Assembly: GCA_017412605.1 (NCBI GenBank)
Contig: JAFPWY010000013.1
Coordinates: forward strand, 62,001-126,000
Direction of reading: 5' to 3'
Length of the DNA: 64,000 nucleotides
From: Fibrobacter sp.
Lineage (GTDB): Bacteria; Fibrobacterota; Fibrobacteria; Fibrobacterales; Fibrobacteraceae
In this document: positions 9,313 through 31,075 of the stretch, one piece after another
How positions within the stretch are numbered: the stretch's first letter is position 1
How the letters are laid out: every line of letters begins with the position of its first letter
The notes under the pieces: generated by a model
What the model saw: only the letters and a program-made list of their open reading frames with translations
Database searches by the model: none
Told to the model about the DNA's origin: nothing
Translations under genes and position numbers: made by a program

Positions 9313-10977
9313 CTATGCCTGGTGGGCCTTGAACCACTTGATGAGCCCATTGGTGGAGCTGTCGTGGTTCAGTTCGGCGTCGGCCTTGGCAAGTTCCGGA
9401 AGAATCTTCTTCGCGAGCTGCTTACCGAGTTCAACACCCCACTGGTCGTAGCTGTTGATGTTCCAGATAACGCCCTGTGTGAAGATCTTGTGTTCGTACA
9501 TGGCGATGAGGGCGCCGAGCGTTTCCGGAGAAACGTAGTCCATCATGATGGAGTTGGTCGGCTTGTTGCCTTCGAACACCTTGTGCGGGGCGAGGAATGC
9601 GATTTCTTCTTCGCTCTTGCCGTCCTTGCGGAGTTCTTCCTGGGCCTGGGCGAGCGTCTTGCCGTTCATCAAGGCTTCGGGCTGTGCAAAGAAGTTGGAA
9701 AGCAGCTTCTGGTGGTGATCGCCGACCTTGTTGTGGCTGTTGGCCGGGGCGATGAAGTCGCAAGGAATCATCTTGGTGCCCTGGTGGATCAGCTGGTAGA
9801 AGGCGTGCTGGCCGTTCGTACCCGGTTCGCCCCAGAGGATCGGACCCGTCTGGTAGTTCACGCGCTTAGAGTCACGGTCAACGGTCTTGCCGTTGGATTC
9901 CATGTCGGCCTGCTGGAAGTAGGCGGCCAGACGGTGCAGGTACTGGTCGTACGGGAGCATGGCGTAGCTGGAAGCGCCGAAGAAATTGTTGTACCACACG
10001 CCGATGAGGGCGAGGATGACAGGCATGTTCTTGTCTGCCGGGGCGGTCTTGAAATGCTGATCCATTTCGTAGGCGCCCTGGTGGAGCTTCATGTAGTTTT
10101 CAAAACCGATGCGGAGAGCGATCGAGAGGCCGATAGCAGACCACAGGGAGTAACGGCCACCCACCCAGTTCCAGAATTCGAACATGTTGGCGGTGTCGAT
10201 ACCGAAGGCCGCAACGGCTTCGGTGTTGGTGGAGAGGGCAACGAAGTGCTTCGCGATGGACTTCTCGTCGCCATTGAAAGCCTTGAGAACGGCGGCCTTG
10301 GCCGTTTCGGCGTTGGTCATGGTCTCGAGCGTCGTGAAGGTCTTGGAAGCAACGATGAAGAGCGTTTCTTCGATGTTCACCTTCTTGAGGGTTTCGGCCA
10401 TGTGGGTGCCGTCGATATTAGAAACAAAGTAAACTTCCGGAGAGGTCTCGCCGGCGATAGGCTTTTCGGCGTAGGGCTTCAGGGCTTCGGTCACCATCAC
10501 CGGACCGAGGTCGGAACCACCGATACCGATGTTCACAACGTACTTGATGGACTTGCCGGTGTGGCCCTTCCACTTGCCGCTGCGGACGAGGTGAGTGAAA
10601 TCTTCCATGTGCTTGAGAACTGCGCGGACTTCGGGCATCACGTCCTTGCCGTCGACGCAAATCGGGTCGCTGCCCTTGTAGCGGAGTGCAGTGTGGAGCA
10701 CGGCGCGCTTTTCGGTGGTGTTAATCTTTTCGCCAGCGAAGTACTTGGCGCGCATGTCATCGAAGTTCGCGGACTTGAGCAGGTCCTGGAGCTTCGCCAT
10801 GGTCTCGTCGGTGATGATGTTCTTGGAGTAGTCCAGGAAGAGTCCGCAGGCTTCCAGGCTGAACTTGCTGGCGCGGGCCGGGTCCTTAGCGAAGAGTTCC
10901 TTCATGTGCCAAGTCTTGGCGACTTCGGCGTGGGCCTCGAGGGCCTTCCATTCCGTAGAATCTGTCAGTTTCGACAT
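9313..10977 (-). CDS. pgi: glucose-6-phosphate isomerase
   Basis: A 554-residue cytosolic enzyme that interconverts glucose 6-phosphate and fructose 6-phosphate in glycolysis. It is full length for the large bacterial/eukaryotic type. Family signatures are all present: [16 protein letters not shown], the sugar-phosphate loop [50 protein letters not shown] with the catalytic Glu and His, and the C-terminal [11 protein letters not shown] with the catalytic Lys. AAGGA precedes ATG 10977, and TATATT about 40 bases upstream may be its -10 box. It stands alone with its own terminator. Codon use is strongly biased to C-ending codons, typical of a well-expressed gene. Confidence 0.98.
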
Positions 10978-11472: not shown

Positions 11473-13590
11473 ATGCCTGAAAATTTACAGACAGAACAGA
11501 TAAAGAACATGCAACTGCAGTTTGCTCAAAAGGTTTTTGATGAAATTAGCAAGGTTGTAACGACCAATGAACAGGAAAAACTTTGCATGCTGCTTCCGGG
11601 TATTACCCTTACAAAAAGCGATTATGAATACGATGTAAAAAATGATGTGAAAAGTACTGTTGTAGAAGCGAATGAGTCGAAGCTTGCGAATAAGCTGTTT
11701 AATCCGTATTCGCTGGTGGCTGCTGACAATGGAACGACTCTGCCCAATCAGTACCTGTCGGCTCTCAATTTGTTGACGCCGAAACTTAACGCTTTCATTG
11801 CAAAGTCCAAGAATAAACTCCGCGAATTGCTTATGAAGCGTTATCCCTTTACTTTTGAAAATGCGGATGGCTCCACGGAATATAGAGAAGACTGTACCTT
11901 CCAGGATGTGTATTTCTACTTGTACACAGATTATCTGAATGCAGCGAAGGAATGGGCTGATGAACAGGCGCGTGAGAAGATTAATAGGCCAAATACATCG
12001 GATTATCTCAAGTGGTATCAGGATGTCGCGGATGTCCGCTTCAATATCATTAACCAGAAACGTGCAAAAATTCTTGCCATCTTCTCGCCGAACGATATGA
12101 AAATCTTGGAAGGCGTTCTTGATAGTGGCAGTGGTGCCGAACTTCAGGAAGCCCGTCAGTTGCTCAATAACTTGAGAAAGTTTAATCCGGATGGCGGGTA
12201 TACTTATCCGGTTAAATTCTATCCCTCGGATTGGTTCGATTACTTAGGAACTTCGTTTACTCCTGTTGATTTGCTCCATGATCCAATTAAGCTTTCGGAT
12301 AAATTAGAATTGCTTTATACTAGGCGAAATTCGCTTATTTCTAAAATTGAAAGCCTTGCAAGCATATCGCCTAATTTGAACGAAGTGAAGTCAGCTGCGG
12401 CAGCGGCTAGAGCTGCTGATGCAGCCTACGATGCCGCGTTTAGTAATCTCGCTTTTACAGGGGAGAAAGCTTTCTTTAGTTTTGCAAAGAATGTGGTGAA
12501 ATCTATATGCTATGCAACCGTAAGTACCCAATTACTTCGGAATTGTGGTATCCCGTATTTTGAGAGCTTTGGTGATGCCGCGTTGGCGACGATGATTGTT
12601 GATGCCATTAGTGATAATATGGTTAGTGGCGCAAGTCAGCTAAAAGATGCGGAAGATTCCTTAAAGGCTGCAGCGACGAACTGTGTCAATAAATGGGGCA
12701 CGTACGGTGATTTGGCAAATCGGGCACAATTGAAAGATTCTATCCAGATGTTGAAAGATCAGTTGATTGAAATTAATGATCAAATTGATAACCTTTCAAA
12801 TGATATGTGTCTTGCCGTTTCAAGGAATTCTTCTACAGATTCTGCTGAACCTCCTTCGACTCCCAAGGGCTTTACGCAGGTGCTGATATCGCATAAAAAT
12901 AATTATAGTACATTGTCTACGAGTTCTCATGTTGATGTAACTAGGGAAAGTACAACTGCCGGCGCTTGGATTTTCAAATATAATTCATCAAGTGTTGATG
13001 TTAACACGAGCTTTAACAGGGTCAATACAGCGGAAGGTACAACAATCGATATTGGCATGAATGTTGCAAAGGTGGCGATTGAACGTCAGTGGTTCAATCC
13101 TGGTGTGTTCCGCTTGACAAAGAACATGTACAATCTTGTGGATGACAAAATCAAGGTGTCCCTTGGACCGGATGGTTTCAAGAACGAGAATCTGAAAAAT
13201 ATGTCGGAATGCGTTCTGCCATGTTTCCCGACAGCGATGCTAGTCGCTCGCGATGTCACCATTAAGATTACGGCTTCGGAAAGCTATGATACGCAGGATC
13301 TTACGTATGCATATTCTGAATCGACAACCACTCATTCCTACGTATTCTATCATAGTTCGGAGACGACTCAGTCGACAGACCAGACGAATAATAGTACGTC
13401 CTACTTCGATGGCAGGACGATTACGCTGAAGTTTGCGGAACCGCAGGTCATAGGATTCTATCTCCAGGCTGTTGCTGAGGATGGTAGTACTGCTTATAAG
13501 GATGGTGCTGAAGATTACATGACCATCACGAAGTTCGTTGAGACGTACAAGAATCTTCTTGACGAATACATCCAGATGAACAAGAAGTAA
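11473..13590 (+). CDS. large protein of unrecognised family, copy 1
   Basis: A 705-residue protein with no signal peptide and no clear membrane span, so probably cytosolic or exported by an unusual route. AAGGAG 8 bases before ATG 11473 fixes the start; the frame extends upstream without an SD. Visible blocks shared with its neighbour are LPGITLTKSDYEY, VVEANESKLANKLF, FSPNDMKILEGVLDSGSGAELQEAR, GGYTYPVKFYPSDWF, then a middle helical region (Ala-rich, ~300-420), PKGFTQVLI, MNVAKVAIERQWFNPGVF, TAMLVARDVTIKI and DGRTITLKF. The C-terminal third is strand-rich. I do not know the family and give no function. The coding region is AT-richer than pgi and dxs, compatible with horizontal gain. It pairs with the paralog at 13697. 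Confidence 0.75.
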   Translation: MPENLQTEQIKNMQLQFAQKVFDEISKVVTTNEQEKLCMLLPGITLTKSDYEYDVKNDVKSTVVEANESKLANKLFNPYSLVAADNGTTLPNQYLSALNLLTPKLNAFIAKSKNKLRELLMKRYPFTFENADGSTEYREDCTFQDVYFYLYTDYLNAAKEWADEQAREKINRPNTSDYLKWYQDVADVRFNIINQKRAKILAIFSPNDMKILEGVLDSGSGAELQEARQLLNNLRKFNPDGGYTYPVKFYPSDWFDYLGTSFTPVDLLHDPIKLSDKLELLYTRRNSLISKIESLASISPNLNEVKSAAAAARAADAAYDAAFSNLAFTGEKAFFSFAKNVVKSICYATVSTQLLRNCGIPYFESFGDAALATMIVDAISDNMVSGASQLKDAEDSLKAAATNCVNKWGTYGDLANRAQLKDSIQMLKDQLIEINDQIDNLSNDMCLAVSRNSSTDSAEPPSTPKGFTQVLISHKNNYSTLSTSSHVDVTRESTTAGAWIFKYNSSSVDVNTSFNRVNTAEGTTIDIGMNVAKVAIERQWFNPGVFRLTKNMYNLVDDKIKVSLGPDGFKNENLKNMSECVLPCFPTAMLVARDVTIKITASESYDTQDLTYAYSESTTTHSYVFYHSSETTQSTDQTNNSTSYFDGRTITLKFAEPQVIGFYLQAVAEDGSTAYKDGAEDYMTITKFVETYKNLLDEYIQMNKK

Positions 13591-13630
13591 TCAAGGAAAA
13601 TCACCACTATGGAGATTTTCTGATATGAAA

Positions 13631-13668
13631 AAGGGGAATTCGTGGAATGGATTTCACGAGTTCCCCTT
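13631..13668 (+). terminator. hairpin between the paralogous pair
   Basis: AAGGGGAATTCGTG / CACGAGTTCCCCTT forms a 14-bp stem with one G-T pair and a 10-base loop, followed by a T-rich stretch (TTTTCTTTAAATTGGTTTTT). A smaller hairpin (GAAAATC/GATTTTC) lies just before it. It may terminate copy 1 or set the ratio between the two proteins. Confidence 0.55.
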
Positions 13669-13696
13669 TACATGTTTTCTTTAAATTGGTTTTTAT

Positions 13697-15892
13697 ATGG
13701 CAAGCAATAATCAAAATTTTGCAGATACGATTTATAATGGGATAAGCAGTGCTCTCGGTGGTACAAATCCCAATCAGTACCTGACGCTGATGCTTCCGGG
13801 TACGATTCTGAACGAGAATGACTTTACCTACAATTACGATGGTAAGGAAGCCAAGACGGCAATTGTCGAGGCGAACGAGTCTCGGCTGGCGAACAAGATG
13901 TTTGATCCGTGTAAAATGACGGCCACCGACAACGGATTTTCTTTGCCTTACCAATATAAGATGGCCCTAGATTCGCTTTCTCCGAAAATCAACAAGGCCT
14001 TGGGAGATTACAAGAACAGACTGAGGCAAATGCTCATAAGCGAATATCCCTACGATTTCGGAGACGGTTCAGATAAGGTCTATACGCTCCAAGAAGTGTA
14101 TTTCCGGCTGTACGATGAATATATCGAAGAAATGCACCGCTGGAACGATATCCAGCAGCAAAAGAAAGATGAGCTGAGAAAACAGTTCGAGATTAATGCC
14201 GACTACGAGCAGGCCTATTTGGAATGGTTCGAGAACAATGCGGATTTGTACCTGAACGAGATTAATGAAAAACGTGCGAAGGTCCTTTCGGTGTTTTCTC
14301 CGAACGACATGAAGATTCTCGAAGGTGTCCTGGATAGTGGCTGCGGCGCTGAACTTCAGGAAGCTAGGCAGACGCTGAACAACGTCCGCAAGCTGACGCC
14401 GGAGGGCGGCTATGTTTATCCGGTCCGCTTTGTCCCTCCCGACTGGTTCAAGCAAATCGGTTCCTCGTTTACTTCTGCAGATTTTATGGAAAGCCCGGAA
14501 ACCCTTTCCGAACGATTGCAGATGCTTTCGGCCCGAAGAATGGAACTTTACACCTTCGTGCAGAATGTTGCAGAACTAATGCAGGATGAGAATGTAAAGA
14601 ATGCATTGAACAGGGTGAAAGACATCAAGAGAGCCATTGACACTTCCCGCTCGGCGATTGTAAGGAATCACGGAACGACGATATCCAATGTCCTTTATTC
14701 AGCGGTTAATCTAAAGTCCAGTCTAGGGAATAATGATAGGGTGTTTAATACCCTTATAAAGACTTATAGGCGAGAGGCTCTTTCTTCCGCAAGAGTTGTG
14801 GCTGTTAAACGTCGCCTTCAAAGAGAAGCCGAACTGCAGGATAAGTATATCAACTTCTTAAGCGTTTTGGTAAGCGTTGTTAAGGAAGCGAATAAATCGG
14901 AAAGCTGTGAAAAGATAGTTATGCCGGTCATCAACCAGCTGGATGATATCAATGCAAAGATTGCTGATGTGCAGAACCAGCTGACGATATCGTCTGGTTT
15001 CTTCAGTGCCGACAGCAAGTCCACCAAGCTGAAGAGCTCGGATTCGACGGCCGTTGTCCCGAAGGGCTTTACTCAGGTTGTTATTCATTCCAATTTCACT
15101 GAATTGAAAAACAAGAGTGAGCAGTTTAGCTCGACGAGCGAATATACCCAGGGGTATAACTTCCTGTTCCTCGGGAAGCGGCAGAGCATGGAATCTTCCT
15201 CTACGTCGACGCTTGATAGCCTGATGAACTCGAATTGCAATGTGACCATTGAGATGAATGTCGCAAAGGTGGGCATTGAACGCGATTGGTTCAATCCGGG
15301 AGTATTTGCCCTGACCAAGGACATGCTTAAAATGGGCAGCGAGAAAATATCTCCTGAAAAGGATTATGACAGCATGACGGATAGTCGACTGAATGCGATG
15401 CAGAAATGCGTATTCCCGTCTTATCCGGTGGCTATGCTCATCGCGCGAGATATAAAGATTTCATTCGAGTTTAATTCCAATCAGAAGGTCTCGACCTATT
15501 ACAAGGATTTTGAAAGGCACGCCAGATATGGGGGAAACTTCTTTATCTTTGGTGGTAGCTCGAGCAATTCTTCGTTTGCGACGTCCAGGGTACATTCTTC
15601 CATTACGGATGACAGGACAATCACGCTGAAGTTTGATTCGACGCAGTTGCTGGGCTACTATATGGAAGCGACCCGTCCTGATAAGAGTGTCCAATTCGAC
15701 GCGTTGAGCAAAGATCAACGCGAATCGATCGAGTACTCGTCCATTTCCGACTTTGTCAGTACGTACAAGCGGATTTTGGATTCTATCAAGCAAACATCCC
15801 AGGCGGAACCGTCTCCCGAGCCGTCTCCCGAACCGTCAAAGCCGTCGGTGTCACCTGAGGTCCCGCCGGTGAACTACGGAGAAGAACAGTAG
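13697..15892 (+). CDS. large protein of unrecognised family, copy 2
   Basis: A 731-residue paralog of the preceding gene product, colinear over the whole length. Shared blocks: LPGTILNENDFTY, VEANESRLANKMF, FSPNDMKILEGVLDSGCGAELQEAR, GGYVYPVRFVPPDWF, PKGFTQVVI, MNVAKVGIERDWFNPGVF, AMLIARDIKISF and DDRTITLKF. The middle region has diverged most. It differs at the end by a Pro/Glu/Ser tail (PSPEPSPEPSKPS) of about 30 residues, which looks like a flexible linker. No SD is obvious before ATG 13697, so translation may depend on coupling or an unseen signal. Two diverged copies kept side by side suggest a hetero-oligomer or two variants of one activity; that is inference. Confidence 0.75.
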   Translation: MASNNQNFADTIYNGISSALGGTNPNQYLTLMLPGTILNENDFTYNYDGKEAKTAIVEANESRLANKMFDPCKMTATDNGFSLPYQYKMALDSLSPKINKALGDYKNRLRQMLISEYPYDFGDGSDKVYTLQEVYFRLYDEYIEEMHRWNDIQQQKKDELRKQFEINADYEQAYLEWFENNADLYLNEINEKRAKVLSVFSPNDMKILEGVLDSGCGAELQEARQTLNNVRKLTPEGGYVYPVRFVPPDWFKQIGSSFTSADFMESPETLSERLQMLSARRMELYTFVQNVAELMQDENVKNALNRVKDIKRAIDTSRSAIVRNHGTTISNVLYSAVNLKSSLGNNDRVFNTLIKTYRREALSSARVVAVKRRLQREAELQDKYINFLSVLVSVVKEANKSESCEKIVMPVINQLDDINAKIADVQNQLTISSGFFSADSKSTKLKSSDSTAVVPKGFTQVVIHSNFTELKNKSEQFSSTSEYTQGYNFLFLGKRQSMESSSTSTLDSLMNSNCNVTIEMNVAKVGIERDWFNPGVFALTKDMLKMGSEKISPEKDYDSMTDSRLNAMQKCVFPSYPVAMLIARDIKISFEFNSNQKVSTYYKDFERHARYGGNFFIFGGSSSNSSFATSRVHSSITDDRTITLKFDSTQLLGYYMEATRPDKSVQFDALSKDQRESIEYSSISDFVSTYKRILDSIKQTSQAEPSPEPSPEPSKPSVSPEVPPVNYGEEQ

Positions 15893-20460: not shown

Positions 20461-22785
20461 TTACTTGAATTGATCTCGATTTTCTTCAAGATACTTGAGA
20501 ATAGAATTTGACTTCCAAGAATATGCTATTTCCCAGCATGAAATTGTTGAACTGTATGGGCCTGTGTCTCGTGCGGTTTGGTTTGGATTTCCGCCATGCT
20601 TTATCATTAATTCAAATAGATCAATTAAATTCTTTTCTGCCGCCATCATAAGGGGGGTGTAACCAATAAGACCATTGACGTCGTGTCTTTGGTTTGGGTC
20701 CGCTCCATTCTCTAGAAGTATTTTAGCAATAGAGAACATTTTCTCCTTGGACAAATATTTTTTCCACTGTTCTTCGAAATATTGTGCTGTCCATTGTTTC
20801 GCTTGTTCCAGCATAGGATTCTCTTTTTGCAAGCGCATGGATTGATAAACTTCTTCATTTGTCATATTTCTAAAGAACTCGTTTCCTCTTCTTATGCCAT
20901 CTAGCATTTCGGGAGTCCAGGAACGCGGATTTTGGTGATAATCAATTATATTTGGCATTGAACTGTATTGAACGGCCCTATAAAGAGGGCTTTGCTGATC
21001 TGTAGATTGAATCTGGTTTACATCGGCGCCCATTTCAATGAGTTTTTGAACGACATCAACCTCTCCAGTCAATATAGCTTGACCGAGACAGGTTAATTTC
21101 TTTTTGTTGGTTGGGGTAAGGAGAGTCTTTCGATCATGGGGATGAGAGACTATCAAATGGAAAATTTCCTTGCCTTCCTTAGGTTTAAATGGGATGGTGT
21201 TATAGACCATGCTCTCGATGGCGAACAACAGAGCTGATTCGCCAGAAGAGGATAACGCATTGACATCGACATTTGCGTCAAGCAGAGTTTTTACCGCATC
21301 AACATCACTCATTTGAGTAAACCATACTAACTGCGGATAAGTTTTCCATGATATTTCAAAAGGCGTCTTATAAGGTTTTACAGGAATTTTTGGGATTTTC
21401 CCTTCTTCGAAGAATAATGGCAAATGCACATCTGTTTTCTTATCTTTTATTGATTCAATGTTTTTTACATCTTTTTCTGAAAAAAGAATAAAAAAGTCAT
21501 TTGCCCACTGCTCAACTTCCCAATCTTCTACTATATTATCGTGGCTTCGTGAGCTTTTGTTTACATAGGGAATATTGTTATAGGAATCTCTGTGAATGTC
21601 CATCGGTTTTCCTGACAATCCAAAGACAATAGCATAGGTTTGCATCATTTTTAAGAAAGGCCTATCCCCACAGATTGCACCCAAGTCTCGAGCAACACGG
21701 AAAAAACTACAACTAGTCTTTTTTTCGGGGTCTATTACATAAATAGCTGAACGAATTATATCAGTTGTATAAAAAAGATTTGGCATAACTGTTTTGAGCG
21801 TTTCTAATGCCTCATCAAATTTTCCTTCATAAATTAAGGATAACACCCAAAGGAGATTAAATCGCCATTCTACAGCAATGCTGTTAATCTGCAAAGTTGC
21901 GCAAACTTTAGCAAATTGATTAAGGGCAAGAATTGTTGTTGGAGGGTTTTGTTGTGCGCAATATCGTATTCCATCTTGTGCACAAATAAAATGCTTTTGT
22001 AATATAGAACATTTTCCAAGATGAATTTCGTCATCTTTGAATTCGTTTTTATTTGAGGAGGATTTCTCGATTAGTGATTTAAAATAATCCTGAATCTTGT
22101 ATACAGGTTTAGCTATTTCTGTTGTTTTTTGCAAAAGTTGTGAAACAAATGCAATTTCACAGCATTGTATGTAATGATTTCCAAGAACATCCTTTGCCTT
22201 ATTGATGACGTCAAATAGATTTCCCATATTGGGAAGTTGCTTGCCCGCAATCCATCGCTGGACTTTATCTCGTTTAGTATTGTGAAAACGATCAATAAGT
22301 TGCGGACATTTCTCCGAAATGACATTGAGTCCATATTGAAGAGGATTTTCCGTCAAAAGGATTTCATTTGCAAAATTATCATCCTTGAATAGTTCTTTGA
22401 CAAAGGCATAAATCATCCCGCAGATAAAGGGGATAAAAGATTTATACAATTCATTTCTATTAGGGAAGGTTTCAGGAGGCCATCCATTAATATTCTTTTG
22501 ATTGATGACGAAAAAATCTTCTTTTAACTGCTGAATAAATTCTTCGCAAATGTTATAGGTAGAACCGATAGAACCGGAACAAACTTTTGGATACTCAAAC
22601 GGTAATTTAAACACTTGTTCTACAGCATCAATCAGTGAATAAAGATTGATACTCGGATCGTTGGCAAGGTGTTCTAGTTTTTTAGTGATACCTGGAGCGA
22701 GGTCAGCGTCTAATACCCGAGCTACGATTTGTAGTTGTCGACCCAGCGTAGGATAAGGTGGATTAAATTTCATTCGTATTTTCAT
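20461..22785 (-). CDS. ankyrin-repeat protein with unrecognised N-terminal domain
   Basis: A 774-residue protein. About 500 N-terminal residues are helical and unrecognised (LGRQLQIVARVLDADLAPGITKK, RWIAGKQLPNMGNLFDVINKAKDVLG, EWRFNLLWVLSLIYEGKFDEALETL; the last resembles a TPR helix pair). The C-terminal ~270 residues hold ankyrin units: SDVDAVKTLLDANVDVNALSSSGESALLFA, GEVDVVQKLIEMGADVNQI, and SIAKILLENGADPNQRHDVNGLIGYTPLMMAAEK. Ankyrin repeats bind other proteins. The start at 22785 follows AAGGA; the frame extends 213 bases further up without an SD. The gene is AT-rich and sits beside the restriction-modification operon, so an accessory, perhaps defence-related, role is possible but unproven. 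Confidence 0.75.
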   Translation of the reverse strand: MKIRMKFNPPYPTLGRQLQIVARVLDADLAPGITKKLEHLANDPSINLYSLIDAVEQVFKLPFEYPKVCSGSIGSTYNICEEFIQQLKEDFFVINQKNINGWPPETFPNRNELYKSFIPFICGMIYAFVKELFKDDNFANEILLTENPLQYGLNVISEKCPQLIDRFHNTKRDKVQRWIAGKQLPNMGNLFDVINKAKDVLGNHYIQCCEIAFVSQLLQKTTEIAKPVYKIQDYFKSLIEKSSSNKNEFKDDEIHLGKCSILQKHFICAQDGIRYCAQQNPPTTILALNQFAKVCATLQINSIAVEWRFNLLWVLSLIYEGKFDEALETLKTVMPNLFYTTDIIRSAIYVIDPEKKTSCSFFRVARDLGAICGDRPFLKMMQTYAIVFGLSGKPMDIHRDSYNNIPYVNKSSRSHDNIVEDWEVEQWANDFFILFSEKDVKNIESIKDKKTDVHLPLFFEEGKIPKIPVKPYKTPFEISWKTYPQLVWFTQMSDVDAVKTLLDANVDVNALSSSGESALLFAIESMVYNTIPFKPKEGKEIFHLIVSHPHDRKTLLTPTNKKKLTCLGQAILTGEVDVVQKLIEMGADVNQIQSTDQQSPLYRAVQYSSMPNIIDYHQNPRSWTPEMLDGIRRGNEFFRNMTNEEVYQSMRLQKENPMLEQAKQWTAQYFEEQWKKYLSKEKMFSIAKILLENGADPNQRHDVNGLIGYTPLMMAAEKNLIDLFELMIKHGGNPNQTARDTGPYSSTISCWEIAYSWKSNSILKYLEENRDQFK

Positions 22786-23016
22786 AATAGTCCTTTTTTT
22801 TATAAAAAATACCTTCAAATTGTTTTTTTGTGGAGATTGGACGGTCCATCGTTTCACTCCCAAAAAATGTTTTGGCTTTTTTTTTGCAAAAAAATGGCAC
22901 TTTTTGCCCATAAAAAAGAGGGGCGGTTCTATTCGAACCCCGCCCACGATATGTCTCGCGCCATCAGGTAACACAATTTTTGTGCCGTTCAATGGCAACG
23001 CAGCCTGTTTATAGAC

Positions 23017-23461: not shown

Positions 23462-25807
23462 TTACGCCACGTATAATGTCTTCTGGAAATCGGTGAAGAG
23501 TTTCTTCAAATCCTTGCCGGTCACGCCCATTTTATCGCATGCGTCCTTGATGGTGCCGTACTTGAGCTTGACGAGTTCGGGTAGTTGATTCAGCGATAGT
23601 TCATCGACTCCGTTTTCCACATATTGCTGCAAGACGAATTCCATAAAGGGAACCTGCTTTTCGGATATTTCGTTCAGGATTTCTTCGTGCATCAGGCGGA
23701 CTCTTTCGGCGCGTTCCATGGGGCTTTTGTTGTAGGCGATGAGTTCCAGCACATCAAGCAGGTCGCATTTTTCATTCTGCGTCAAGGCTTGCACTTGGCG
23801 GAGCCTTTCTTTGCTGAATCCGTTGTCACTCAAGTTCTGGAGCAGAGCTTCACGGGTCGTTGGGTCAGACCAACGGGCACGCAAATCTTGGCTATCCTTG
23901 AAAAACTCCGGAATCTTACCGAAGAGAATTTTGATAAACTGTTCGAGTGTTATGAGTTCACCATCAAACATGAACTTTTCTTGCCACTGGGCCTGCAAAC
24001 GAAGCACATGATTTGCGGAAAGTTTAATTTCAACGCATTTCTTTTCTTTTGTTTTGGCGTCACATGTACACGGAAGATTGCCACAAATTTTGCAGGATTT
24101 CGGTTTGCGTTTTCCGCCACTGGAACCGTTGCCACCATCGGGGTCTCCACCGACGGGCGGTTCTGGCGTATCTATAATCGGATCACCGTCCCATTCGGGG
24201 TCACTAAAGTTTTTGTTTGCGCCCACGAAGTCGTAAATGGTGAAGAAATACTTCCCATCAAAAAGCCTTGTTCCACGACCGATAATCTGCTTAAATTCAA
24301 TGATATTATTCACAGGCCGCATCAGTACAATATTACGGACATTCTTCGCATCTACACCTGTTGAAAGCTTTTGTGATGTCGTGAGAATCGTGGGCAACAG
24401 TTTTTCGTTGTCCTGGAAAGTCTTCAAATCGGCTTCGCCCTTATCGCCATCATCGCTGGTAACACGCTTGCAGTAATTCACATTGGGCTTGCGAGAATGC
24501 TGGTTAATCATGTCGCGAAGAATTGCGGCATGAGCCTGGGTCGCACCGAATACAATCGTCTTTTCGTCGGGATCAATCTGTTTCAAGAATTCTTCTACCC
24601 TAAACTCATCGCGGTCACGAATCTTGATATTGCCATGATAGAAATCATCTTCGGTATAAATCCTGTTCGGGTCAATCTCGCCGCTTTCTACATCATCATC
24701 AGGTTCATAAACATAATTATCAATATTGCTAGAGGAACTTCGCACACGGTAAGGCGTCAAGAAGCCGTCTTCTATTCCCTGTTTCAGAGAATAAACATAG
24801 ACAGGCTTTCCAAAATACTCGTATGTGTTAGCATTTTCATTTTTCTTAGGGGTTGCCGTCAAACCTAAGTGATATGCGCGCAGGAAATATTCCAAAATAC
24901 CACGCCAACGGCTTTCGTCATTGGCGGCACCACGATGGCATTCATCGATGATAACAAGGTCAAAGAAGTCTTCAGGATAGTTCTCATAAACAAATTTTCC
25001 ATTCAATGTGGTCATCATCGTCTGGAAAATACTGAAATATATGCTCGGGCCCTTAGGCACGCCTTTTGCTTTGGCTATAGATTCTGGCGTAATGCGGCAC
25101 ATGGCATTTTCGTCAAATTGTCCGAAATCATTAAGCGCCTGGTTCGAGAGGATATTGCGGTCGGCAAGGAATAATATACGTGGCAAGCGTTCCGTTCCAT
25201 CAACATTCCATTTAGCCTTGAAAATTTTCCAGCAAATCTGAAATGCAATGTATGTTTTACCCGTCCCTGTAGCGAGCGTGAGTAAGATGCGATCCTGCTT
25301 TCGCGAAATTGCATCTATGACGTTATTGACGGCAATTTCCTGATAGTAGCGGGGAGACTTGCCACCATCCCTATTGAATGGAACAGCATTCAGCTTGTCA
25401 CGAAGCGGATTGTTTTCGGGATAGAGTCGTTCCCACAGTTCTTGCGGAGTCGGGAAAGCATCGACAAAGCCTTCCTTCCCCGTTTGCATGTCGATTGCCC
25501 AGATTTTATCGCCATTGCAAGAATACGTGAAGCGGATGTTCATGCGTTCCGCATATTCCTTGGCTTGCGGCACTCCTTCGCTCACATCGAGTTCGTCCTT
25601 TTTCGCCTCGACGATTGCAATCTTGATGCCCTTGTAAACCAGAAGGTAGTCGATTTTCTTGGGGTTGCGTTCGGCATGGCCGATTCGACCCGGTGCGATT
25701 TCGTAAGCGGACTGCTCCGTATAAATGGCGCTGTCCGGCGTCACTTCCCACAAGGCTTCTTTCAGTTTGGGGTCAATCTTTTTTCTTCTGGTATCGGACT
25801 CGTTCAT
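23462..25807 (-). CDS. hsdR: type I restriction enzyme, R subunit
   Basis: A 781-residue subunit that translocates and cuts DNA in the type I complex. The N-terminal nuclease of PD-(D/E)xK type shows Asp 53 in KIDYLLVY and Glu 67/Lys 69 in IAIVEAKK. The superfamily-2 motor has Walker A ATGTGKT (179-185), Walker B DECH (288-291), LTATP, and motif VI IGRGTRL. A short Gly-rich segment and CKICGNLPCTC, a possible zinc site, follow near residue 580. It is shorter than EcoKI HsdR (about 1,170), as in the group of compact R subunits. It is last in the hsd operon; its start lies 3 bases after the stop of the small membrane protein, so translation is probably coupled. Confidence 0.95.
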   Translation of the reverse strand: MNESDTRRKKIDPKLKEALWEVTPDSAIYTEQSAYEIAPGRIGHAERNPKKIDYLLVYKGIKIAIVEAKKDELDVSEGVPQAKEYAERMNIRFTYSCNGDKIWAIDMQTGKEGFVDAFPTPQELWERLYPENNPLRDKLNAVPFNRDGGKSPRYYQEIAVNNVIDAISRKQDRILLTLATGTGKTYIAFQICWKIFKAKWNVDGTERLPRILFLADRNILSNQALNDFGQFDENAMCRITPESIAKAKGVPKGPSIYFSIFQTMMTTLNGKFVYENYPEDFFDLVIIDECHRGAANDESRWRGILEYFLRAYHLGLTATPKKNENANTYEYFGKPVYVYSLKQGIEDGFLTPYRVRSSSSNIDNYVYEPDDDVESGEIDPNRIYTEDDFYHGNIKIRDRDEFRVEEFLKQIDPDEKTIVFGATQAHAAILRDMINQHSRKPNVNYCKRVTSDDGDKGEADLKTFQDNEKLLPTILTTSQKLSTGVDAKNVRNIVLMRPVNNIIEFKQIIGRGTRLFDGKYFFTIYDFVGANKNFSDPEWDGDPIIDTPEPPVGGDPDGGNGSSGGKRKPKSCKICGNLPCTCDAKTKEKKCVEIKLSANHVLRLQAQWQEKFMFDGELITLEQFIKILFGKIPEFFKDSQDLRARWSDPTTREALLQNLSDNGFSKERLRQVQALTQNEKCDLLDVLELIAYNKSPMERAERVRLMHEEILNEISEKQVPFMEFVLQQYVENGVDELSLNQLPELVKLKYGTIKDACDKMGVTGKDLKKLFTDFQKTLYVA

Positions 25808-25810
25808 ATG

Positions 25811-26167
25811 CTATTTTTCTGTTTTTTCTTCAATTTTTTGTTTTATTTCCACTTCTATATTTTTGAAATTTTTGTTAGCATTATCCTGAAAAACTTTTAT
25901 AAGATTATTATTTAACATATCGCATCCCCCTATAATAGATTCAAAATTATCTTCTATTTTATTTACTTTGTCCAACTGACTTATATTGGAATTATATATC
26001 AAGTTTCGTATTTCTTTACGATTTTCTTTTGTCAACTCTGTAATTTGATAAATCAATTCGAAGTTAATGTTCCATTCATTAACAAATTTTGTCCATTTTT
26101 TTCTCTCTCTATATATGCCTAAAAAAGCAATTAATATAAATACAACGCAAAGAGCATAGATTATCAT
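25811..26167 (-). CDS. small membrane-anchored coiled-coil protein inside the hsd operon
   Basis: A 118-residue protein beginning MIIYALCVVFILIAFLGIY, a single N-terminal membrane span, followed by a basic turn (RERKKW) and a helical, coiled-coil-prone region (ITELTKENRKEIRNL, KNFKNIEVEIKQKIEEKTEK). ATG 26167 follows the stop of hsdS by one base, and the SD GGAGGT is inside the hsdS end; hsdR starts 3 bases after it. This tight packing says it is translated with the RM subunits. It is strongly AT-rich. I recognise no family. It could anchor or regulate the complex, or be an unrelated passenger. Confidence 0.75.
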   Translation of the reverse strand: MIIYALCVVFILIAFLGIYRERKKWTKFVNEWNINFELIYQITELTKENRKEIRNLIYNSNISQLDKVNKIEDNFESIIGGCDMLNNNLIKVFQDNANKNFKNIEVEIKQKIEEKTEK

Positions 26168-26168
26168 T

Positions 26169-27413
26169 TTAGTTACCTCCTTGGAAAGTTTGTTTGAGGA
26201 TTGATTTTTTGAGTTCGTCGCAGTTGGCGATGATTTGCTTGTAGTTTGCTTCGAGGCGTTTGACGTTCTCGGAGAGTTTGTCTAGGCGGGCGACAATTTC
26301 TTTTTGGACGGAAAGAGGCGGGAGGGGGATTTTACATTCCTTTAATTTTTCTATAGTCAAAGCATTATATGCAGCGCCTCTTGTCATTGCCTTTAAACTA
26401 TCAATAATCGATTTTAGTTCATATTTTAAGAATATCGAATCAAATAAACTAATATTCTTCAACCAAATAATGTTACCATCTTTAAAATAAAAGGGATTGT
26501 TATTTGAAATAACCAATATTTCGCCAATTGTACCTACAGCAGAAATCAAAACATCTCCAATTTGAGGAACTCCAAATTTTTGCTTTATTTGATTATACTT
26601 TTCTTCTGAAATAAACAATTCTAAAGATAATGGTTCGCCATGAGATAACTCTTTTATTTCTTTAGTCCTATAAAAAGGTATTCCCCTTTTAACGTATTCA
26701 TCTTTAAATATTCTTTTGCTTGATGTAACTTCACACACGTCTCTCATTTTCTTCCATTCCCAGCCGGAGGGTAAATCTGCACTGGATTCTTCGCTACGCT
26801 CAGAATGACGTGATAGTGGGTTCAGTTCTTTTTCAAGGGTGGTTTCGAATAGTTCCTTGGCGTTTTTGAGATTGGTTTCGGCGTTTGTTTTGAGCGTTTC
26901 TATTTTTGAGAATTCTTCGTCAAGGAATTTGACTATGCGTTTCTGCTCTGAAAGAGGGGGAATGGGAATTTGAATTTCCTTAAATTTTGCAGAACTGACA
27001 CCACCAATTATACCCGATAAAAGTTTTTGAAACTCATCAGTGAAAGATTGTTCAAAAGTGTAATAAAAAACAAATTTTCCAATTAGTTTTTCTCTATTAT
27101 AATCAATCGCAAATAGCTTGTTTCCAAAGCAAACATCTTCATTTAAAATACATTTCTTTTTTCCTGCACTACCACCTTCTGCACATATTAAAACAGTATC
27201 CTTTCTTGCGACTTTAAATCCGGCTTCCTCAAAAGGTATTCTAATTCCATTTTCGTAATCAACTTCAGAATCATTACCAACATCTTTTGTTGCGATAAAA
27301 GGAAATCCCGATTCTACATTTGAGTATCGTTTCTTTTTTACATTAGCATTTATGCTGTTGCCGTTATAAATTTTTGCAACTTCACCAAGTTTCTTCCATT
27401 CCCATTTGCTCAT
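26169..27413 (-). CDS. hsdS: type I restriction enzyme, specificity subunit
   Basis: A 414-residue HsdS with two target-recognition domains. Each half opens with the family pattern (WEWKKLGEVAKIYNG at the start, WEWKKMRDVCEVTSS at ~217) and ends in the conserved helix (IPIPPLSEQKRIVKFLDEEF; IPLPPLSVQKEIVARLDKL), which spaces the domains and binds HsdM. The two domains read the two halves of a split DNA target; the target cannot be predicted here. Between the halves, SRHSERSEES is encoded by a dispersed palindromic repeat inserted in frame. GGAG precedes ATG 27413. It is co-transcribed with hsdM (121-base gap) and the downstream genes. Confidence 0.95.
   Translation of the reverse strand: MSKWEWKKLGEVAKIYNGNSINANVKKKRYSNVESGFPFIATKDVGNDSEVDYENGIRIPFEEAGFKVARKDTVLICAEGGSAGKKKCILNEDVCFGNKLFAIDYNREKLIGKFVFYYTFEQSFTDEFQKLLSGIIGGVSSAKFKEIQIPIPPLSEQKRIVKFLDEEFSKIETLKTNAETNLKNAKELFETTLEKELNPLSRHSERSEESSADLPSGWEWKKMRDVCEVTSSKRIFKDEYVKRGIPFYRTKEIKELSHGEPLSLELFISEEKYNQIKQKFGVPQIGDVLISAVGTIGEILVISNNNPFYFKDGNIIWLKNISLFDSIFLKYELKSIIDSLKAMTRGAAYNALTIEKLKECKIPLPPLSVQKEIVARLDKLSENVKRLEANYKQIIANCDELKKSILKQTFQGGN
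26782..26812. repeat. dispersed palindromic repeat inside hsdS
   Basis: The stretch contains ATTCT-tcgctacgctc-AGAAT followed by GACG. It matches a dispersed repeat seen in many bacterial genomes (I recall 'attcttcgctacgctcagaatgac'). Here it is read in frame as SRHSERSEES in the linker between the two HsdS halves. Confidence 0.7.
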
Positions 27414-27450
27414 AACATTCTCCGGTTGCTTAGACCCATTCGACTTTGTT

Positions 27451-27526
27451 TATCCCGGACTTGTTCCGGGACTCAGGGTGACTCTTTGTTTAATGCACTA
27501 GATTGCTTCGCGTTGCTCGCAATGAC
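27451..27526. repeat. two dispersed palindromic repeats between hsdM and hsdS
   Basis: CCCGGA-cttgt-TCCGGG (27454-27470) and ATTGC-N12-GCAAT followed by GACG (27502-27526) are two different short palindromic elements placed end to end. They fill most of the 121-base gap between hsdM and hsdS. Confidence 0.7.
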
Positions 27527-27534
27527 GTTTCTTC

Positions 27535-28977
27535 TTAAAGCAATGTCTCCAAGATTTTTTCGTTTTCCTTGTTGAGTTTCTGCATTTCCTTGATGATGGT
27601 TTTGGCATCGCGGAGTTCGACTTCGGTTTTCTTGTTGGGATTTTTCACCGAGAGGTCGTATGTTTCGGGGTTCAAATCCTTGACGTTTATGGTCCACGAT
27701 TTTTCGCTGTCTGTCTTTTTCTTCTGCAACTTCACGAATTCCGCAAGGTCGTCTTCGGTGAGCGGGTTTGTCTTGCCCAGATTGCGGCCAAAGTCCGGCT
27801 GGTAGTACCAGATTTTTTCGGTGGGGCGACCTTTCTCGAAGAAGAGCACGACGGTCTTTACGCCTGCGCCTGTAAACACGCCGCTTGGCAAATCGAGAAT
27901 CGTGTGCAGGTCGCAGTTTTCCAAGAGTTCCTTGCGCAACATGACCGATGCGTTGTCGGTGTTCGAAAGGAAGGTGTTCTTGATGACGATGCCCGCGCGG
28001 CCGCCCGCCTTGAGCAGCTTGACAAAATACTGCATAAAGAGGTAGGCAGTTTCGCTTGTCTTGATGGGGAAATTCTGCTGGACCTCGGCGCGTTCCTTGC
28101 CACCGAAGGGCGGATTCGCGATGATGACGTCCTTACGCATTTTCTGTTCCACGTTCGCCATGTTTTCGGACAAGGTATTCGTGTGCAGAATGTTCGGGGC
28201 GTTCACGCCGTGCAAAATCATGTTCATGATGCCGATGATGTAGGCAAGCCCCTTTTTCTCTTGTCCGTAGAAGGTTTTCTTCTGCAAGGTTTCCCTGTCG
28301 GCAACGCTCTTGACTTTTTGCTTCATGTAGGCGTAGGCTTCGCAAAGGAACCCAGCACTTCCGCAAGCCGGGTCAAGCACGGTCTCGCCGATTTTCGGGT
28401 CGATGATGCGGACGATGGTGCGGATAAGCGGACGCGGCGTGTAGTATTCGCCGCCGTTACGGCCTGCGTTGCCCATCCTGCGGATTTTGTCTTCGTACAG
28501 GTGGCTCATCTCGTGCTTGTCTTCGCTGCTCTGGAAACTCAGCGCGTCGGCATACCACAAGATTTCGCGGAGGTTGTAGCCGCTAGTAATCTTGTTGCGG
28601 AGTTCACCGAAGATTTCGCCAATCTTGTATTCCAGCGATTGCGGCGTGGTGGCGGATTCCTTGAACTTCTTGAGGTAAGGGAACAGCTTGTTGTTCACGA
28701 AGTCCGTGAGGTCATCGCCGGTGAGCGCCTTGGCGTGGTCGGGTTCGCCATTCTTTGTTTTCGGGGCGGCCCAGGTGTTCCAGCGGAACTTCTTTTCGAT
28801 AATCCGTTCGTAGGTTTCGCCCTTGAGTTCGGCTTCTTCTTCGCGCTCGGCTTCGAGGTTGTCCAGGTACTTGAGGAACAGGACCCACGAGGTCTGCTCC
28901 ACGTAATCCAGTTCGTTGCTGCAACCACCCTCTTTCCAGAGGATGTCATCGATATTGTTAAAAGTCTGCTCAAACAT
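27535..28977 (-). CDS. hsdM: type I restriction enzyme, methyltransferase subunit
   Basis: A 480-residue N6-adenine methyltransferase. Residues 1-150 form the HsdM N-terminal helical domain (LWKEGGCSNELDYVEQTSWVLFLKYLDNLE). The SAM site is LDPACGSAGFL (from 201) and the catalytic motif is NPPF at 288-291. GEYYTPRPLIRTIVRIIDP is the typical lead-in. It methylates adenine in the target defined by HsdS, protecting the host and forming the core of the restriction complex. GAGG 5 bases before ATG 28977 supports the start. It is the first gene of the operon hsdM-hsdS-membrane protein-hsdR. The upstream region contains a large structured element. Confidence 0.96.
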   Translation of the reverse strand: MFEQTFNNIDDILWKEGGCSNELDYVEQTSWVLFLKYLDNLEAEREEEAELKGETYERIIEKKFRWNTWAAPKTKNGEPDHAKALTGDDLTDFVNNKLFPYLKKFKESATTPQSLEYKIGEIFGELRNKITSGYNLREILWYADALSFQSSEDKHEMSHLYEDKIRRMGNAGRNGGEYYTPRPLIRTIVRIIDPKIGETVLDPACGSAGFLCEAYAYMKQKVKSVADRETLQKKTFYGQEKKGLAYIIGIMNMILHGVNAPNILHTNTLSENMANVEQKMRKDVIIANPPFGGKERAEVQQNFPIKTSETAYLFMQYFVKLLKAGGRAGIVIKNTFLSNTDNASVMLRKELLENCDLHTILDLPSGVFTGAGVKTVVLFFEKGRPTEKIWYYQPDFGRNLGKTNPLTEDDLAEFVKLQKKKTDSEKSWTINVKDLNPETYDLSVKNPNKKTEVELRDAKTIIKEMQKLNKENEKILETLL

Positions 28978-30127: not shown

Positions 30128-31075
30128 ATGAAGGAAAAAGGTGAAATCGTGCTTTACCAGCCGGAGGGAGAAGTGCGGCTGGAGGTGCGCGTAGAGAACG
30201 AGACGGTGTGGCTCACAGCAAACCAAATGGCACGCCTGTTCGATAGAGACGAAAAAACGCTTAGAAAGCATATTAACAATACGTTTTTGGAGGAAGTCGA
30301 AAGGGATAACAACACGCATTTTTTGCGTGTTGATGGGGTCAAACAACCGGTTGCTTTTTACAGCCTTGACGTCATCATATCCGTCGGTTACCGCGTAAAA
30401 TCGGCTAATGGCGTAAAATTTCGCCGCTGGGCGAACCAAATTTTGAAGGACTACATACTTAAGGGGTATGCCATCCGCCAAAGAAAAATCACAACGGATT
30501 TGCAAATAGCAGACCGATTGCATGAGCAGCGACGACTCATCGAGAATCAACAAACAGAAATCGCGGAGTTCAAAGTTGCGTCGGAAAAACGTTTTGACGA
30601 ACAGAATTCCCGTCTTTCCGCAGTCGAGCAACACATTGATTTCTTTGTCAGGGCTTCCCAAACGCCAACCAGTGGCTTTCTCACGACGGGCACCCGATTC
30701 GACGGGTTCGTGCTCATCGCAGACTTAGTGAAGTCGGCAAAGCGTTCGGTCGTGTTCATTGACCCATTTGCCACCATCGAGGTGCTGAAATTTGCGGCGA
30801 TGCGTGTGAAGGACGTAACGGCCAAAATCTACTCTCCGCGCATCACAAAGGAATTCAAGGAGGCTGCCGCACTGCATAACAAACAATATCCGGGGCTGGA
30901 ATTGAAGACAATGCGTTCTATTCACGATCGTTTTTTGCTCGTTGACGACACCGTATATCACTTCGGGGCGAGTTTTAAAGATATGGGCAACGAGATGACA
31001 GCCTTCAGTGTTCTGGATTTCATTACACCCGCAGAAGTCATTGAAAAAATCCAGGAGAGTATGAAAGGGAGATGA
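30128..31075 (+). CDS. RhuM-like protein fused to a PLD-like domain
   Basis: A 315-residue protein. Residues 1-130 match the RhuM/virulence-protein domain: EIVLYQPEGEVRLEVRVENETVWLTANQMARLFDRDEKTLRKHINN, and VKSANGVKFRRWANQILKDYILKGYAI. A coiled-coil linker follows (~130-170). The C-terminal part resembles a phospholipase-D-fold domain: residues 266-274 read HDRFLLVDD, an HxRxxxxD form of the HxKxxxxD motif, followed by YHFGASFKDMG. Only one such motif is present, so an active enzyme would need a dimer. RhuM genes often sit beside type I RM loci and in mobile islands; their role is unsettled. AAGGGG before ATG may serve as the SD. Confidence 0.8.
   Translation: MKEKGEIVLYQPEGEVRLEVRVENETVWLTANQMARLFDRDEKTLRKHINNTFLEEVERDNNTHFLRVDGVKQPVAFYSLDVIISVGYRVKSANGVKFRRWANQILKDYILKGYAIRQRKITTDLQIADRLHEQRRLIENQQTEIAEFKVASEKRFDEQNSRLSAVEQHIDFFVRASQTPTSGFLTTGTRFDGFVLIADLVKSAKRSVVFIDPFATIEVLKFAAMRVKDVTAKIYSPRITKEFKEAAALHNKQYPGLELKTMRSIHDRFLLVDDTVYHFGASFKDMGNEMTAFSVLDFITPAEVIEKIQESMKGR

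Follow-up and report, generated by a model that had tools for sequence, protein, structure and literature searches.

The window analysed here is a 64,000-nucleotide stretch of a contig from a gut Fibrobacter sp. (JAFPWY010000013.1, positions 62,001 to 126,000), and it carries two tandem genes, A and B, whose protein family has no name and is unrecognised by sequence. The likeliest reading, to which we give about even odds, is that A and B together form a two-component large β-barrel pore, with an architecture like that of MACPF, CDC, and gasdermin proteins and no detectable sequence kinship to them. The family comprises a long class of ~700-900 aa, found in Fibrobacter, gut Clostridia, Bacteroides, and a Helicobacter bin, and a short class of ~440-610 aa, found in Bacteroidota, rhizobial plasmids, Actinomycetota, and one archaeon. 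The two genes of the window belong to the long class:

11473-13590, plus strand: gene A, the upstream paralog (705 aa), long class, "upstream" clade
13697-15892, plus strand: gene B, the downstream paralog (731 aa), long class, "downstream" clade; AlphaFold2 (AF2) model with a predicted local distance difference test score (pLDDT) of 73 and a predicted TM-score (pTM) of 0.60

Gene A starts with an ATG that has AAGGAG 5' of it. The two products are colinear paralogs with 38% identity across 765 columns, in agreement with an earlier note on this DNA, which had described two diverged, tandem paralogs of about 700 residues. The conserved blocks quoted there (VEANES-LANK, FSPNDMKILEGVLDSG-GAELQEAR, MNVAKV-IER-WFNPGVF, and RTITLKF) are present in A and B, and variation is greatest in the helical middle. 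The note had also called the family unrecognised, and after profile searches and the modelling of two members it still matches no characterised family by sequence. Searches of Pfam, NCBIfam, PHROGs, and PADLOC gave no convincing family match for A or B, the best Pfam match of the pair lying under its cut-off and spanning 30 residues, and a PDB sequence search returned coiled-coil-type matches alone, confined to the helical middle. No description of such a family was found within open-access papers. As the note had stated, A and B have no signal peptide visible on inspection by eye.

The two classes are homologous in a profile-profile comparison (hhalign 99.5%, E 2.5e-23, 404 columns) and are linked by BLAST through the Fibrobacterota relative G005. 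The single-chain AF2 model of L057, a short-class protein of Proteiniphilum (alignment of 10 sequences, pLDDT 69, pTM 0.53), contains a four-strand core with two inserts, which form two long β hairpins at places corresponding to the inserts of B. All 35 PDB matches of this model below E 1e-3 in Foldseek were MACPF pores or gasdermin-type pores, the former including pleurotolysin B (E 2e-7), C9/MAC, perforin, and perforin-2, and pneumolysin followed at E 0.015. VIA-align gave Z scores of 10.2 for perforin-2, 9.2 for PlyB, 8.6 for GSDME, 8.5 for pneumolysin, and 7.8 for EaCDCL. The likeness of the modelled L057 to MACPF, gasdermin, and CDC pores is suggestive of a pore fold and is not proof of one. 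The model of window protein B, also a single chain (alignment of 28 sequences), is mostly helical in its N-terminal two thirds, followed by a small β core with strands at residues 459-466, 514-528, 575-592, and 641-658. The conserved core common to the family is C-terminal and β, and the variable middle is helical.

The two inserts of A and B are candidate membrane hairpins:

12871-13080, plus strand: candidate membrane hairpin 1 of A, F467-I536 (spacing 69 residues, tip GAWIF)
13246-13446, plus strand: candidate membrane hairpin 2 of A, A592-Q658 (spacing 66, tip YVFY)
15068-15277, plus strand: candidate membrane hairpin 1 of B, F458-I527 (spacing 69, tip NFLFLG; low model confidence)
15443-15646, plus strand: candidate membrane hairpin 2 of B, A583-Q650 (spacing 67, tip GGNFFIFGG; low model confidence)

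These inserts are nearly fixed in length. The modal spacing in the long class is shared by 74% and 70% of sequences in the two inserts, compared with 15% in the middle and 22% in the linker, and the length between landmarks P242 and G457 (helical middle) varies from 215 to 352. Among the short-class A proteins, a set of archaeal, actinobacterial, Bacteroidota, and rhizobial sequences that are 16-25% identical to the reference outside one close group, 14 of 15 have an insert 1 of 55-62 residues, and 13 of 15 have an insert 2 of 57. The pattern is absent from their partners, in which the inserts vary from 28 to 101 and from 3 to 340 residues. The spacing between fixed motifs is 65/62 in the short-class A proteins and 69/66 in the long class, a difference of +4 in both inserts. 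Fixed length by itself is not unique to hairpins, since short conserved blocks of the N-terminal part do not vary in length either. Both inserts have a hydrophobic aromatic peak in their middle (positions 28/60 and 29/60), and the hairpin strands of the short class alternate polar and nonpolar residues (mean z 1.3, 2.1, 0.4, and 0.9 for the four strands; helical control -0.1), with a combined z that is overstated because the sequences are related.

In the architecture that we propose, each subunit would begin with a helical region at its N terminus, continue with a middle that is likewise helical but variable, and end in a C-terminal core of four strands, from which two long inserts extend. 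Upon activation, the inserts would unfold into two β-hairpins per subunit. These would enter the membrane with their tips first, as part of an A/B oligomer that is either mixed or nucleated. Activation by proteolysis is proposed because proteases adjoin some short-class loci, and the target might be either the producing cell or a rival. Release would take place without a signal peptide. For A and B, we infer pore formation and joint assembly as well as activation, target, and this mode of release.

The proposed pore can be compared with several known systems. Published two-component bacterial CDCL toxins require proteolysis for activity (PMC11169675) and carry an F/Y-F/Y-Xn-YGR motif plus a GG pair (PMC7527733), so two-component large-pore formers activated by proteolysis do exist in bacteria (PMC11169675; PMC7527733). 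Like the family described here, the CDCL toxins of Bacteroidota (Elizabethkingia and Bacteroides fragilis) have paralogous genes side by side and occur in gut bacteria, and their large β-barrel pore with its proteolytic activation may be compared with the proteases that adjoin some members; L057 also matches the EaCDCL pore in structure. Unlike CDCL toxins, the family has long helical regions, and the window pair shows no signal peptide by eye. MACPF proteins, in which two inserts between core strands become hairpins, are the best matches of the L057 model. Gasdermins, including bacterial ones, match L057 in their pore-state structures, and caspase-like or trypsin-like genes adjoin some short-class members; however, the family proteins are two to three times larger, have long helical parts, and are usually paired. 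The α pore-forming multi-component toxins (YaxAB and AHL) also have paralogous components and helical regions, but their matches are single, weak, and limited to helices, whereas the core common to the whole family is β.

Several results weigh against the pore proposal. The inserts of the long class are Ser/Thr-rich. They also show no polar/nonpolar alternation, the chief weak point of the proposal where A and B are concerned. In the B model, the inserts have low confidence, and a comparison of this model with the PDB returned no pore former (Foldseek best E 0.3, helical matches). The alignment beneath the L057 model is shallow, its Foldseek TM-scores are only ~0.2, and it also matches levivirus maturation proteins in a viral fold library (E 1e-5, low TM-score). 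Since these proteins are unrelated, long sheets together with helices inflate Foldseek scores unspecifically; we take the match as a warning about specificity and not as a sign of kinship. At the sequence level, the MACPF signature (Y/W)-G-(T/S)-H-(F/Y)-x6-GG was found in 0 of 70 members, [YF]GTH being present in 8 of 9 Bacteroides MACPF controls, and the YGR motif of CDCL toxins had two chance-like occurrences among the 70. Pfam PF01823 (MACPF) had no match in the family, and hhalign to a bacterial (Bacteroides) MACPF profile, a small one of 9 sequences, gave 0.4%. Because the CDCL motif and the MACPF signature both fail, the family is filed under neither. In addition, no protease or evident immunity gene adjoins the window pair, whose neighbours are housekeeping genes.

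Part of this evidence would also fit an alternative without any pore, in which A and B are a filamentous or scaffold pair, the Ser/Thr-rich inserts form an extended sheet, and the MACPF match is a by-product of long predicted strands. The missing amphipathic alternation in the long-class inserts, the exclusively helical folds matched by the B model, and the maturation proteins matched in the viral library are consistent with it. However, insert lengths are fixed and paired and hydrophobic tips are central in both classes, and alternation is strong in the short class, which makes a scaffold rather improbable. The confidences attached to this and the other alternatives considered below overlap, and their sum is not intended to equal one.

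The two-component nature of the proposed pore is suggested by the conservation of the pair. Tandem pairs were found at 27 distinct loci (6 in Fibrobacter, 6 in Clostridia, and 15 in the short class), compared with ~15 loci at which the copy is single or truncated. These counts were compiled by hand from open reading frame (ORF) tables, with pairs that have a truncated partner included and duplicate entries merged. Relatives are thus mostly paired, rather than mostly single unrelated genes, and the pairs extend over Fibrobacter, Clostridia, Bacteroidota, rhizobia, Actinomycetota, and an archaeon. In the long-class tree, all nine upstream copies form one clade (support 95/100), while the nine downstream copies form a second clade, together with one contig-edge copy and with moderate support (88/78). 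Because the upstream and downstream copies form separate clades, the long-class pair is not a recent duplication, and because each clade holds both Fibrobacter and Clostridia, the A/B duplication is older than the spread between the phyla. As read from this tree, the long-class pair is ancient and co-inherited, and its gene order has been kept; the result covers the long class. Single long-class copies form branches of their own, and a Sinorhizobium locus has three family members in a row. The pair is conserved, and the suggestion of the earlier note that A and B are an effector pair stays plausible.

The family is widespread and patchy. A member occurred in 11 genomes of the phylum scan (167 genomes), with intact pairs in six Fibrobacter genomes and broken remnants in one (G126, locus L028); in the latter, family-gene remnants at L028:5945-7295 lie amid repeated radical-SAM genes, an observation of locus decay. 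A scan of a genome collection gave 28 loci, in Fibrobacter, gut Clostridia, Bacteroides, a Helicobacter bin, other Bacteroidota, Nonomuraea, and the archaeon Methanomethylovorans; several of these come from metagenome bins, in which a locus may be assigned to the wrong organism through a binning error. Members are also present on plasmids of rhizobia and Acuticoccus. The family is rare in samples of Actinomycetota (2/246), Bacillota (1/398), and Bacteroidota (8/395), counts that each take in the centre genome. Plasmid and phage collections gave no match to the window protein, the phage collection gave none to a short-class member, and viral-contig scans yielded no confirmed family match; a phage origin is therefore unsupported. 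The earlier reading as a conserved machine part needs revision: A and B are not confined to Fibrobacter as such a part, but belong to a broad family whose short members model as large-pore formers.

The local context also suggests that the pair is mobile. It lies in an AT-rich island between housekeeping genes, as had been noted from the sequence: the guanine plus cytosine (GC) content is 0.42 in A and 0.47 in B, compared with 0.57 in pgi (9313-10977, opposite strand) and 0.56 in the transketolase-like gene (from ~15960), and the spacers have 0.38 upstream of A and 0.34 between A and B. A close relative, G079, has a transketolase of 97% identity; there, pgi together with the bases immediately upstream of it adjoins the transketolase gene with no pair in between, and a pair is present at another site. 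We read this as movement of the pair, either by insertion here or by loss in G079. The genome of the window has no third copy.

Gene neighbourhoods bear on how such a pore would be activated and on its target. Among short-class loci, L113 has caspase-like and trypsin-like genes upstream (the trypsin-like match lying under the Pfam cut-off), L117 adjoins a trypsin-like gene whose match is just over the cut-off, and L059 adjoins a papain-family gene. These proteases would fit a gasdermin-like suicide device, inactive in the cytoplasm until a protease switched on by phage or stress lets it perforate the producer's own membrane. The same reading is favoured by the SIR2-domain gene near L117, the TIR genes near L055, the restriction genes near L052 and in the window, the patchy distribution, the gasdermin pores among the L057 matches, and the lack of a signal peptide by eye in most members. 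However, the window pair and most other pairs have no nearby protease, the Sinorhizobium pair seems by eye to have signal peptides, and several loci carry cell-wall hydrolases instead, namely muramidases beside L112 and L113, a CHAP gene beside L114, and an NlpC-like gene adjoining L049. The scans of Pfam and PADLOC, libraries in which a bacterial gasdermin model was not confirmed, contained no gasdermin row. As the argument is one of guilt by neighbourhood at few loci, we regard a suicide device as rather doubtful. It differs in its target from a released toxin, an antagonistic protein set free by lysis or injection that delivers or accompanies the enzyme encoded next door; this fits the hydrolases, the weak ADP-ribosyltransferase-like match beside L076, DUF6765 beside L073, and the patatin and ribonuclease-like genes beside the G134 pair, but is quite unlikely, as neighbours vary from locus to locus and the window pair stands alone with no secretion signal or delivery tag found.

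Some individual features of these loci may be mentioned. The ADP-ribosyltransferase-like match (Scabin-like/DUF7587, under cut-off) is in L076:8557-9105, directly downstream of a long-class member. At L049:10028-12937, a 969-aa partner has a long C-terminal extension and a hydrophobic end segment, a possible membrane anchor. Radical-SAM genes recur near members (L055:1742-2713, L025, L028, and L049), with a small protein beside them in Fibrobacter loci; a link to ribosomally synthesised and post-translationally modified peptides was dropped because the window pair has no such genes next to it. By eye, L079:7312-8154 could be read as nucleotidyl-cyclase-like, but it had no Pfam match and the reading is not claimed. 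The remaining features of the window pair are as follows:

12082-12129, plus strand: conserved block FSPNDMKILEGVLDSG in A, long-class N-terminal helical region
14294-14341, plus strand: conserved block FSPNDMKILEGVLDSG in B, long-class N-terminal helical region
14495-15004, plus strand: variable helical middle of B, residues 267-436, as placed by the model
13630-13669, plus strand: 18-bp stem-loop between A and B, a candidate terminator, attenuator, or processing site

The 91-nt stretch that holds this stem-loop folds at -35.1 kcal/mol (z -5.6), far stronger than shuffled sequence. Elsewhere in the window, the next AT-rich stretch (23462-28977) contains Type I restriction-modification-like genes (hsdR-, hsdS-, and hsdM-like by eye) and is defence-island-like, and a RhuM-like ORF (by eye) adjoins these genes at 30128-31075. 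An 845-aa ORF with C-terminal ankyrin-like repeats lies at 20461-22998 in a separate AT-rich island (GC 0.36-0.39).

In its broadest form, the two-component pore proposal extends to an undescribed superfamily of giant-pore formers that has spread horizontally through bacteria into an archaeon, with hairpins in both subunits in one branch, a hairpin subunit and a hairpin-less partner in the other, and several unrelated proteases as activators; we put this forward as a tentative possibility. If the proposal is true, the MACPF/CDC/gasdermin class would gain a two-part branch unrelated to it in sequence, whose paired subunits occur in soil bacteria and in anaerobic cellulose degraders of the gut, some of them next to proteases. 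Two-component assembly of giant pores and the recruitment of proteolytic triggers would become testable in harmless organisms, and genes now annotated as hypothetical proteins would gain a name and a test. The pair of Fibrobacter and its relatives would then be a bacterial weapon against membranes, or a suicide device, of a new two-part kind.

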